From Cytophagales bacterium (lineage in GTDB: Bacteria; Bacteroidota; Bacteroidia; Cytophagales; 172606-1), in contig JAUJMU010000017.1 of the NCBI GenBank assembly GCA_030446715.1, positions 1 to 64,000 on the forward strand: a stretch of DNA of 64,000 nucleotides. The letters run 5' to 3'. The notes under the pieces are model-generated. The model was not told the DNA's origin. It made no database searches and saw only the letters and a program-made list of their open reading frames with translations. The position numbers and the translations under genes are program-made. Shown here piece by piece: positions 4,088 to 7,837 of the stretch. The first letter of the stretch is position 1; every line of letters starts with the position of its first letter.

Positions 4088-6535
4088 CTAAAACCTCAGA
4101 TTCACCGACGCCAGAAAGTTGGTTCCCGCCTGCGGATAAAAGAAGTTTTCGGTGATCCGCTCCCCGCCGGTCACGTAGCCGAGAGTGTAGCCGTTGGAAG
4201 AATACAGGTGATTGAACACATTGCTGACCAGCAGGTTCAGCCCGATTTCCCTGACCAGCCGGGTTTTGAAGGAATAATTCACCCGGATGTCGTTCACAAA
4301 AAAGGGATCAATGCTCCGGTCTTCGCCGGAGGTGTTGTCGAGGTACTGCCGGCTTACATACTTACTGACCAGTGTCACGTTCAGATTCTTAACCGGCGTG
4401 CAGGTAAGCGTACTGGAGCCGATGAAGCCGGGGGAAAAGGAAATATCGGTTTCCCGGTACCCTATTTCCCGCTGTTCGCCGGTGTCGAAGTCATCCAAAA
4501 ACTCCCGGAAGTTGCGGATTTTGTTGCGACCCAAAGTTGCCGTGGCGGCCCAATTCAGCTTTTTGAGCACTTGCACGGCCCCGTCCAGTTCGATGCCGGC
4601 CCGGTAACTGCGCGGCATATTGGTACGGATATAGGCCCCCACGTCGTTGATCTGGCCGGTCAGCACCAGCTGATGGCGGTAATTCATGTAGTACAGGTTG
4701 GCTCCCAGCTTCGATTTCTGGCTTTGGCGGCGGTAACCGGCCTCCCAGTCCTGCAACCGTTCGGGCCGGGGCCGGCTGTCGGACGAAGACTGGGTGAAAT
4801 CGTCGCGGGTCGGCTCCCGGTGCCCGACGCTGTAAGAGGCGTACAGGCTGGAGGTGTTGTTCAGGGCGTAAGTCAGACCGGCTTTGGGGTTGAAAAAATT
4901 GTAGCGGACCGTCTGCTGCACATTTTCGAGCCGCTGGTTGAAGCCGAGAAAGGAATAGCCGATCCGGCGAAACTGCACATCGGCAAAGGCATTGAGCTTC
5001 TCAGACACCTGGTAATTAACCTTCCCGTACACGTTGAAATCATTCTTCCAGGCGTCGTTTTCGTAGTACCGCTGCCGGATGTCGGAGTTGCCGGCAAAGC
5101 GGGCCCAGATTACCTCCCCGAAATGCACCCCGTCGTACCGGTTCCAGCCGCCGCCCAGCACCGCATTCCATTTAGTCGATTTGGCATAACTGGCCGACCA
5201 GGTAGCACCGTAAAAATGATTGTCGAGCCACCGCCGCCGGGTGATGTCGCTGCTGCTGACCGCTGAGTCGCCGATGGTGAAGTCCGGGAGGTTGTAATCA
5301 GAGAAGGCATCACCCGGCCGGAACTCCTCGTAGTAGCCGCGGCCCCGGGTGTAGTGCAGGGCAGTGTTCAGGTTCCAGTTTCGGCCCGGCTCGTGCGAAA
5401 ACAGCAGCTGGTAGTGGTCCTGCCGGTAATTATCCGTTTGGTTGTCATAGGTGTAGTAGTTGTAATTGCGGCCCGAACGGAGCAGGTTCTGCGCCTCCGC
5501 TTCCGAAAGGTCGTTTCGTTCGATATAGGCCAGCATGCCGGGCACGTCGCCTTTCACCCTTGCCTCCGGTACGCCGTACCACGACTGGTAAGTGGTTTCG
5601 CTGCCCGAAAAAACGTTGGCTTTCAGCGTGGTGCGGGTGCCGTAGTAGCCGCCCGACACGAAGTACGAACTCAGGTCGGAGCTGCCCCGGTCAATGTAAC
5701 CGTCCGAGACCAGCCGCGACAACCGTCCGTCGAAAGCCCACTTGCCGCCCAGCAGCCCGGTATTGACCTTCACCGTGTGCCGGCGCGTGTTGAAGGAGCC
5801 GAAGGCATTGTTTACTTCGGCCGAAGGTTCCGCGTTCAGCGTTTCGGTTTGCAGGCTCAGCGTGGCCCCGAACGCCCCGGCCCCGTTGGTGGAGGTGCCC
5901 ACGCCCCGCTGAATCTGAATGTTATCCACCGAAGAAGCAAAATCGGGCATGTTCACCCAGAACACGCCGTGCGACTCGGCATCATTGAGCGGAATGCCGT
6001 TGACGGTGACGTTGATCCGCGTCGGGTCGCTGCCCCGGATGCGGATGCCGGTGTAACCCACTCCCGCCCCGGCGTCGGAGGTGACTACCACGGAGGGCGT
6101 TTCGTTGAGCAGAAACGGCAGGTCTTGTCCGAAGTTGCGGGCTTTGATTTCCTCACTGCTTACGTTGGTGAAGGCCATTGGGGTATTGGCACCGGCCCGG
6201 GTGGCGGTTACGGTTACCTCCTCGGCCATCACCGCCGACTTAACCAAAGTAACATGGACAATCTGATCACCCCGGAGGTCAATTTCCCGGGTTTCCTTCG
6301 CAAAGCCGATAAAGGAAAAGATCAGCGTGTATTTGCCCGCCGGCAAGCCGGGAATCTGAAAAACACCCTGATGATCAGTAGCGGTACCCCGGTAAGTGCC
6401 GCTCAGCGAAACGGTAGCGCCGGGCAGGGGCTGATTGGTGCCGGCTTCCTTTACGGTGCCAGACAGGGTAAACTGGGCTCTGGCGGCGGACGCAAACAGC
6501 ATCAGCAGCACCAAAGCAAACATTCCTTTTTGCAT
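4088..6535 (-). CDS. TonB-dependent outer-membrane receptor, predicted thiamine-related
   Basis: This is an 815-residue outer-membrane active-transport receptor. It has a signal peptide (MQKGMFALVLLMLFASAARA), a CarboxypepD_reg-like beta-sandwich (FTLSGTVKEAGTNQPLPGATVSL, about 22-105), a TonB plug (PMAFTNVSSEEIKARNFGQDLP to VDNIQIQRGVG) and a 22-strand-type barrel ending in NFLASVNLRF with the terminal aromatic residue. I start at MQKGMF, because the longer ORF begins upstream of a poor signal peptide. Two TPP riboswitches sit immediately upstream on the same strand, so thiamine or a precursor is the likely substrate, as for the thiamine-regulated receptors of Bacteroidetes. No pnuT or thi genes follow it here. 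Confidence 0.9.
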   Translation of the reverse strand: MQKGMFALVLLMLFASAARAQFTLSGTVKEAGTNQPLPGATVSLSGTYRGTATDHQGVFQIPGLPAGKYTLIFSFIGFAKETREIDLRGDQIVHVTLVKSAVMAEEVTVTATRAGANTPMAFTNVSSEEIKARNFGQDLPFLLNETPSVVVTSDAGAGVGYTGIRIRGSDPTRINVTVNGIPLNDAESHGVFWVNMPDFASSVDNIQIQRGVGTSTNGAGAFGATLSLQTETLNAEPSAEVNNAFGSFNTRRHTVKVNTGLLGGKWAFDGRLSRLVSDGYIDRGSSDLSSYFVSGGYYGTRTTLKANVFSGSETTYQSWYGVPEARVKGDVPGMLAYIERNDLSEAEAQNLLRSGRNYNYYTYDNQTDNYRQDHYQLLFSHEPGRNWNLNTALHYTRGRGYYEEFRPGDAFSDYNLPDFTIGDSAVSSSDITRRRWLDNHFYGATWSASYAKSTKWNAVLGGGWNRYDGVHFGEVIWARFAGNSDIRQRYYENDAWKNDFNVYGKVNYQVSEKLNAFADVQFRRIGYSFLGFNQRLENVQQTVRYNFFNPKAGLTYALNNTSSLYASYSVGHREPTRDDFTQSSSDSRPRPERLQDWEAGYRRQSQKSKLGANLYYMNYRHQLVLTGQINDVGAYIRTNMPRSYRAGIELDGAVQVLKKLNWAATATLGRNKIRNFREFLDDFDTGEQREIGYRETDISFSPGFIGSSTLTCTPVKNLNVTLVSKYVSRQYLDNTSGEDRSIDPFFVNDIRVNYSFKTRLVREIGLNLLVSNVFNHLYSSNGYTLGYVTGGERITENFFYPQAGTNFLASVNLRF

Positions 6536-6607
6536 AACAGAGAAATGAAAAGAGTTAAACATGGAGAATTGCCCGGGGTAAGGCATTCCCGTTGTTTAGT
6601 TACCATC

Positions 6608-6676
6608 TTCCCTTCGCCGGCATTACCCGGATCAGGTTCAAAGGGTATGATCTCAGCCCGTACAGTGGGGCACCCC
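6608..6676 (-). promoter_or_regulatory. TPP riboswitch, proximal copy
   Basis: The minus strand carries the conserved THI-box core: GGGGTGCCCC, CTGAGATCATACCCTTTGAA, CCTGATCCGGGTAATGCCGG and CGAAGGGAA. It ends about 70 bases before the TonB receptor start, so it can act on translation or transcription of that gene. The 69 bases are identical to the distal copy. Confidence 0.93.
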
Positions 6677-6683
6677 CGATCTG

Positions 6684-6789
6684 GCCTCCCCAACCCCTCC
6701 TTCGGAGAGGCTTCAGACAGAATCAGGAATTTATGTCCCGATCAGGTCCGTGGGTTTACTGGCCCCTCCTTCGGAGGGGTTGGGGAGGC
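6684..6789 (-). other. Linker between the two riboswitches with a perfect 17-bp inverted repeat
   Basis: GCCTCCCCAACCCCTCC (6684-6700) pairs exactly with GGAGGGGTTGGGGAGGC (6773-6789). Each arm can instead make its own local hairpin, for example CCCCTCC-TTC-GGAGGGG at 6763-6779. Neither hairpin is followed by a clear run of U on the minus-strand RNA. Confidence 0.75.
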
Positions 6790-6842
6790 TTTTATTTGCT
6801 TAGGAAAGCCTGCCGCATGGGCAGAGGTGACTGGCTTCGCTT

Positions 6843-6911
6843 TTCCCTTCGCCGGCATTACCCGGATCAGGTTCAAAGGGTATGATCTCAGCCCGTACAG
6901 TGGGGCACCCC
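6843..6911 (-). promoter_or_regulatory. TPP riboswitch, distal copy
   Basis: This is a second complete THI-box core, identical over 69 bases to the copy at 6608, starting 166 bases further upstream in the same transcript. All core blocks (CTGAGA, ACCCTTTGAA, CCTGAT, GTAATGCCGG, GAAGGGAA) are present. The identity points to recent duplication or gene conversion. Confidence 0.93.
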
Positions 6912-6994
6912 TAAGCGGCGTAAAGGTAAGGAAAATTGAAGATTTCTGATAATGGGTGGAAAGAACTAATTTAGATTATATTCTACCGCAGAAA

Positions 6995-7837
6995 ATGGAA
7001 ACATTCACCAAACCGTCCCTTCCCGTTCAGTTCGGGAAAGAAATACCCGTAAAGGTGGCCTGCGCCAACTGCGGCACCCCAGTTGATTTGAAATATTGTC
7101 CCGCCTGCGGGCAGAAGCACATGAGAGGTCGTTTCCTGATGCGGGATCTGGCATCCGATTTCTTCCATAACTACCTGGGTACCGACAGCGGATTCCTGTT
7201 CACCTTCCGGGAGATGCTGCTCCGGCCCGGCCACGCCGTCAACCAGTTTCTGACCGGCCGGCGGAAACCGTACCTGAAGCCCGTACAATTTTACCTGCTG
7301 ATGCTGACGTTCTATTTCGTGGTATCAGAAGTGCTGAACGTCAATCTGCTTGAAATGTCAAGGGAACTGACTTCCGGCCTTGGCTACAAGCCCTCCCCGG
7401 AAAAACTACAGAAGGAAGCCGTGCTGTCGTTCAACAACCTCTTCACGGAAAATATTAAAGTTATTTTCACAGTCCTGTTGTTCATACTGGCCTGGTCGCT
7501 GTGGGTCTTTTACCGCAAGAAGAACTACAACTACACCGAACTGCTGGTTTTCACGCTGTATACCTACGGCGTCAGCTTTGCAATTGCATCCTTTCAGACG
7601 GCGTTATTCGCCGCTGATATGCCAGGAGCGGCTCACCTGGGGACCTTCTACGGCTTCTACGTGATCAGCAACGCCTACCTGATCTGGGCAATGCATCAGT
7701 TTTTCGGAGACCGCGGATGGAAAAGCTGGGGGAAAACCCTGCTTACCTATCTGTTCAGCATGGTGGTTTTTTTCCTGTTGTCGGCCCTGGCCGGTGGCGT
7801 ATTCGGATTTACCTACGCTTATCTGCATAAACACTAA
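6995..7837 (+). CDS. DUF3667 family membrane protein
   Basis: The N-terminus has a zinc-ribbon pattern (CANCGTPVDLKYCPACGQ), followed by RGRFLMRDLASDF and FTFREMLLRPGHAVNQFLTGRRKPYLKPVQFYLL, which are characteristic of DUF3667. Four to five hydrophobic segments make up the C-terminal half (for example VIFTVLLFILAWSLWVFY and YLFSMVVFFLLSALAGGVFG). Function is unknown. I start at METFTKPSL (ATG) because the longer ORF uses a GTG with no conserved residues. The gene is divergent from the riboswitch-controlled receptor. Confidence 0.85.
   Translation: METFTKPSLPVQFGKEIPVKVACANCGTPVDLKYCPACGQKHMRGRFLMRDLASDFFHNYLGTDSGFLFTFREMLLRPGHAVNQFLTGRRKPYLKPVQFYLLMLTFYFVVSEVLNVNLLEMSRELTSGLGYKPSPEKLQKEAVLSFNNLFTENIKVIFTVLLFILAWSLWVFYRKKNYNYTELLVFTLYTYGVSFAIASFQTALFAADMPGAAHLGTFYGFYVISNAYLIWAMHQFFGDRGWKSWGKTLLTYLFSMVVFFLLSALAGGVFGFTYAYLHKH

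Follow-up and report, generated by a model that had tools for sequence, protein, structure and literature searches.

Two TPP riboswitch aptamers with identical cores lie in series ahead of a probable thiamine receptor gene in a Cytophagales bacterium

Why should a single receptor gene be preceded by two copies of the same TPP riboswitch, identical over 69 bases, and what might the second copy contribute? The question is raised by a 64,000-nucleotide stretch of a Cytophagales genome (GCA_030446715.1, contig JAUJMU010000017.1, positions 1 to 64,000; hereafter the window), in which the original prediction, made from the letters alone, described two complete THI-box aptamers upstream of a TonB receptor. 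When the whole 64 kb window was scanned with cmscan against Rfam 15, both copies were recovered as full-length matches to RF00059, each scoring above the curated cut-off of that family (gathering score, 54.3 bits), and no other Rfam family exceeded its gathering score. The aptamers, together with the repeated cores located within them by a repeat finder, are:

6826-6922, minus strand: distal (promoter-side) TPP aptamer, RF00059, 74.1 bits, E 1e-12, full model 1-105.
6591-6687, minus strand: proximal (gene-side) TPP aptamer, RF00059, 67.6 bits, E 4e-11, full model 1-105.
6843-6911, minus strand: 69-nt core of the distal copy, 100% identical to the proximal core.
6608-6676, minus strand: 69-nt core of the proximal copy.

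The repeat finder reproduced the 69 identical bases on the same strand at the distance predicted, the cores being 235 nt apart from start to start, i.e. with 166 nt between them, while a comparison of the flanks revealed that the outer P1 arms, unlike the cores, differ between the two copies. A search of the entire assembly (6.43 Mb, 25 contigs) returned these two TPP matches alone. Both aptamers carry the conserved TPP-binding sequence and, by analogy with known TPP riboswitches, would be expected to bind TPP. They share a strand and a leader, as in a tandem TPP riboswitch, and the promoter box described below suggests that they also share a transcript. The tandem TPP arrangement is real and rare, and of a kind that is already known. 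A long plus-strand frame spanning both aptamers (5354-6949) was judged to be a chance antisense frame, and in a plasmid BLAST search the only matches were to TPP cores in other bacteria.

As predicted, the aptamers lie upstream of the receptor gene and are co-directional with it:

4088-6535, minus strand: TonB-dependent receptor, probable thiamine outer-membrane transporter (OMthi type), with Pfam plug, barrel and CarbopepD_reg_2 domains.
6995-7837, plus strand: divergent DUF3667 gene, found as the same divergent neighbour in a congeneric genome (G002, hereafter the congener), i.e. in synteny.

The likely start codon of the receptor is the ATG at 6535; the listed open reading frame (4088-6586) opens at an in-frame upstream ATG that is out of frame in relatives. 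The protein has the domain organization of OMthi, a plug and a TonB barrel with an N-terminal CarbopepD_reg domain, and its homologues are found downstream of a TPP aptamer across Cytophagales and Sphingobacteriales. Consistent with the regulation of an OMthi gene, covariance model R1 placed an aptamer upstream of most of the 86 receptor loci scanned. This regulation, together with the genetics of BT2390 reported in PMC5613172, makes the receptor a probable thiamine transporter. The assembly, which is 98% complete, contains no match to ThiC and no convincing ThiG (merely a cross-hit below the cut-off), and it does encode a transporter of the PnuC/PnuT family. On these grounds the bacterium is probably a thiamine importer, with the receptor as the sole target of a TPP riboswitch found in its genome. 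The congener, which also carries a tandem, likewise lacks ThiC. In a further congener (G001; L053, contig 188), a thiamine biosynthesis cluster that includes a ThiG gene lies behind a single weak TPP match, and the ThiC region of that genome contains several in-frame stops, possibly reflecting a pseudogene or assembly errors.

Are the two aptamers carried on one transcript? A single promoter-like element was found beside them:

6921-6928, minus strand: promoter-like TACCTTTA, the Bacteroidota TAnnTTTG -7 box with one change.

The GGGG of the distal aptamer follows this TACCTTTA box at a distance of 17 nt. Of 65 homologous leaders, 50 have TAnnTTTG in the 50 nt that precede the aptamer (1.9 expected by shuffling), usually 18-22 nt before the GGGG, and in the three tandem leaders a version with one change is found before the distal copy only. 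The spacer contains no TAnnTTTG box even when one mismatch is allowed, and an internal promoter was rejected. Since the box stands only before the distal copy, both aptamers are probably on one transcript. In genera with a single copy, the same promoter is found upstream of the aptamer and the same leader downstream of it, and the leader that follows the proximal copy is orthologous to the one that follows a lone aptamer in other genomes. Read along this transcript, the order is probably promoter, distal aptamer, spacer, proximal aptamer, ancestral leader and receptor. A search for intrinsic terminators, both between the aptamers and behind them, found none on the sense strand; a single terminator-like site was detected, which lies on the opposite strand and was not above chance.

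The rarity claimed in the original prediction agrees with a published figure of less than 1% for UTRs with multiple aptamers (PMC2258182) and with a strict pattern scan of 292 genomes of the order, which found one further real tandem, that of the congener. Such scans undercount because they require strict letters and spacings limited to about 41-161 nt, a range outside which the window's own spacing falls. The other pattern match, in G224, appears from its sequence to be one aptamer with a C-rich hairpin after it. Among the 86 homologous receptor loci (covariance model; window excluded), the only true tandems were those of the congener and of a Marivirga MAG (L081), the latter scoring 66.4 and 56.9 bits with the Rfam model. 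As the Marivirga spacer shares nothing obvious with that of the window, this tandem is probably an independent event. Two other genera of the window's family (five genomes) have a single aptamer ahead of this receptor. Pedobacter and related loci that gave two model matches each were found to hold one aptamer split by a long P3 insertion, and no tandem. In Pedobacter (L088, L093, L098, L103, L106 and L109), the insertion in the P3 region upstream of the receptor is long and variable, and it splits the covariance-model matches, pushing them under the Rfam cut-off. A third TPP aptamer is present at 1327-1421 of L081, about 1.25 kb upstream of the Marivirga tandem and before another gene.

How old is the tandem? 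The congener has two aptamers (both copies 72-74 bits) ahead of an orthologous receptor, 72% identical, at a syntenic locus with the DUF3667 neighbour. When the window and the congener were compared, the distal 5' flank was identical at 23 of 25 positions and the proximal 3' flank at 20 of 26; flank sites followed an orthologous pattern in 11 cases and a paralogous one in a single case. Because these copy-specific flanks are orthologous, the duplication predates the two species. The cores behave differently from the flanks: the window's two cores are identical to each other (70/70), while they match their orthologues in the congener at 66/70 (distal) and 64/70 (proximal), and the congener's own core pair matches at 61/70. 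If the duplication came before the split, the divergence between paralogues should be no smaller than that between orthologues; this, together with a perfect match that is limited to the core, with the P1 arms kept apart, points to homogenisation of the cores by gene conversion in the window's lineage. Outside the converted core, both the window species and the congener retain CGCTT/AAGCG as the arms of the distal P1. A limited search of the open-access literature found no report of this conversion pattern.

What could couple the aptamers to expression of the receptor? The leader behind the proximal copy contains the following elements:

6563-6590, minus strand: platform hairpin of the proximal aptamer, with a CCCC loop (6575-6578) complementary to the GGGGU of the aptamer.
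6556-6598, minus strand: outer stem of the platform, formed by UAAACA (6593-6598) and UGUUUA (6556-6561) around the C-loop hairpin, from leader folds and pairing in homologues.

In leaders behind a proximal or single aptamer, the hairpin loop is C-rich, usually CCCCT. A C-loop hairpin with a stem of at least 7 bp was found in 52 of 69 leaders, compared with 8.7 expected from dinucleotide shuffles searched likewise, and in 19 of the 26 leaders of a non-redundant set (2.2 expected; maximum of 6 in 200 shuffles). With stems anchored on the loop, all six standard pair types were counted at each of eight stem positions; these counts lean towards pairing, as the hairpin was chosen for pairing, whereas the shuffle counts do not. 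Energies of the duplex between the leader and the 5' strand of the aptamer were below those of shuffled sequences (mean z -1.15, s.e.m. 0.15, n = 63); in the window's own proximal leader this duplex is no better than shuffles (z 0.36), and support comes from the homologues. An analysis of 20 platforms with MAFFT and RNAalifold yielded no consensus structure because MAFFT misaligned the hairpin stems, and it was replaced by the loop-anchored counting with shuffles. By these computations, a C-loop platform is conserved behind the proximal or single aptamer, and pairing between its CCCC and the GGGG of the aptamer may play a role in switching. No description of such a platform was found in a limited search of the open-access literature. 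Inspection by eye showed that thiamine-biosynthesis genes of the order also have C-rich stretches, such as TCCTCCCC, in their leaders, 30-60 nt after the TPP aptamer (L006, L007, L019, L020, L041 and similar), so that a C-rich partner may be common to TPP riboswitches throughout the order.

The leader between the two aptamers is organized differently, and contains:

6798-6804, minus strand: CCTAAGC of the spacer, a candidate anti-P1 switching strand whose complement, GCTTAGG, lies in the 5' P1/P2 strand of the distal copy.
6684-6789, no strand assigned: imperfect palindrome of 106 bp inserted in the spacer, with 28-nt arms (6684-6711 and 6762-6789) that are 86% complementary.

All three tandem leaders lack the C-loop platform after the distal copy; the corresponding stem is 0 bp in the congener and in Marivirga, and the 5 bp counted in the window belong to the inserted palindrome. 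A 7-bp complement that could act against P1 is present in both species, as CTAAGCG in the congener. There, a 14-nt strand of the spacer, GGCGCUUCUAAGCG, is complementary to the distal 5' strand (duplex energy, P=0.002) and is used in the predicted ligand-free fold. The window's CCUAAGC also appears in the predicted fold, but the energy of its duplex does not reach significance (P about 0.1, or 0.4 when the insert is counted). The Marivirga spacer has no similar anti-P1 strand. The palindrome is absent from the congener, the whole element occurring in the window species only. Its half-unit, CCTCCCCAACCCCTCCGAAGGAGGGG, resembles a small interspersed palindromic repeat found in many places in G007 and in fewer in G002 and G000, and the spacer palindrome consists of two such copies in inverted orientation.

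The explanation that we favour overall, with a probability of roughly 0.55, is that the locus comprises two TPP OFF switches in series, derived from an old duplication and later conversion of the cores, with a putative platform for the distal copy. It builds on what the computations found, namely two aptamers in an old tandem with orthologous flanks, a homogenised core, a promoter box at the 5' end only and a C-loop platform. On this explanation, the aptamer would have been duplicated within the leader in a common ancestor of the two species, and gene conversion in the window's lineage would later have homogenised the cores while sparing the copy-specific P1 arms. A single receptor transcript would start just before the distal aptamer and carry both riboswitches. 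When TPP is plentiful, both aptamers would most probably shut the receptor off, the OFF direction and the translational level of control being suggested by known TPP riboswitches. Without TPP, the CCCC loop, on its hairpin inside the outer stem, would pair with the GGGGU strand of the proximal aptamer, and formation of P1 and P2 would free the loop; the proximal platform would most likely govern access of the ribosome to the start codon some 20-25 nt further on. Any function of the distal copy is putative: it may serve as a second checkpoint, probably through pairing of the spacer strand CUAAGC with its 5' P1 strand. Since expression would be lost when either switch is engaged, we propose a steeper or more sensitive response, and a sharpened response to thiamine from the two copies is possible; the unusual regulatory logic that the original prediction suggested is conjectural.

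It is rather unlikely, in our view, that the distal aptamer is a TPP-binding passenger, the gene being controlled by the proximal copy and its C-loop platform only, and that the apparent conservation of the distal sequence is due to repeated copying by conversion. The absence of a C-loop platform after each distal copy of the tandem leaders would fit such a role, as would the weakness of the anti-P1 strand in the window and the tolerance of the spacer for a 106-bp palindrome in the window species. However, the distal P1 arms have been kept in both species although they lie outside the converted core, and the congener's distal copy still scores 72.5 bits with a core that is not identical to that of its neighbour.

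We regard as improbable a shared platform, similar to that of the glycine riboswitch, in which the CCCC loop could pair with the GGGGU of either aptamer and both aptamers would have to bind TPP (or fold) before the loop was freed. Only one C-loop was found, and both aptamers keep GGGGU, the distal copy within the family-typical UAGGGGU and the proximal copy within CGGGGGU (window and congener) or UGGGGU (Marivirga); yet GGGGU is invariant anyway, and the length of the spacer varies widely, with a large insert in the window species. We also know of no inter-aptamer contact motif for TPP aptamers, which counts against such an arrangement.

Where the original prediction left recent duplication or conversion as alternative sources of the identity, conversion is supported, and a recent tandem duplication in the window species, which the 69/69 match of the cores had suggested, is refuted, since both copies exist in the congener as well, where their copy-specific flanks are orthologous, their core is divergent and the receptor is 72% identical. 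An assembly artefact or annotation error, brought to mind by identical repeat copies, is the least credible explanation of all and very unlikely, given that the flanks and spacer are not identical, that the covariance model scores both copies, and that the same pair with the same flanks is found in the independently assembled congener.

A broader reading is possible, though we hold it tentatively and at well below even odds: that the locus represents a new layout, either a distal anti-P1 strand with a proximal C-loop or one C-loop platform shared by both aptamers, kept in step by conversion, together with a so far undescribed TPP expression platform of Bacteroidota in which a CCCC-loop hairpin pairs with GGGGU. 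The P1 arms would then mark the limit of conversion, each of them being bound to a switching partner of its own.

How does this locus compare with known systems? One survey lists 213 TPP elements in tandem (PMC9481103), and tandem, pseudo-cooperative TPP riboswitches such as that of Bacillus anthracis (Welz and Breaker 2007; Sudarsan et al. 2006) are cited in PMC2258182. The window resembles these in having two complete aptamers of the same class in series within one leader. It differs from them in that the sense strand yielded no intrinsic terminator and in that its cores are exactly identical, apparently by conversion; and whereas both riboswitches in the tandems of PMC9481103 are complete, with an expression platform for each, the window has a recognisable conserved platform at the proximal copy only. 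Within the same phylum, the closest likeness is to the OMthi gene BT2390 of Bacteroides (PMC5613172), also a TonB-dependent receptor under a TPP riboswitch. For that locus a TPP riboswitch is described and tandem copies are not mentioned, and its strain synthesizes thiamine, while neither ThiC nor a true ThiG was found in the genome of the window. The mechanism of TPP riboswitches in Bacteroidetes has been called uncertain (PMC5613172), and PMC8710568 states that Bacteroidia rarely use Shine-Dalgarno sequences; the conserved C-loop hairpin offers a testable mechanism for the TPP riboswitches of Bacteroidota. Finally, with two like aptamers and apparently one clear platform, the locus recalls the tandem glycine riboswitch, in which two aptamers serve one platform (PMC2258182), a difference being that cooperative binding is known for the glycine riboswitch. 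An identical aptamer pair in one leader, alongside a related pair with diverged cores, makes the effect of a second copy directly measurable.
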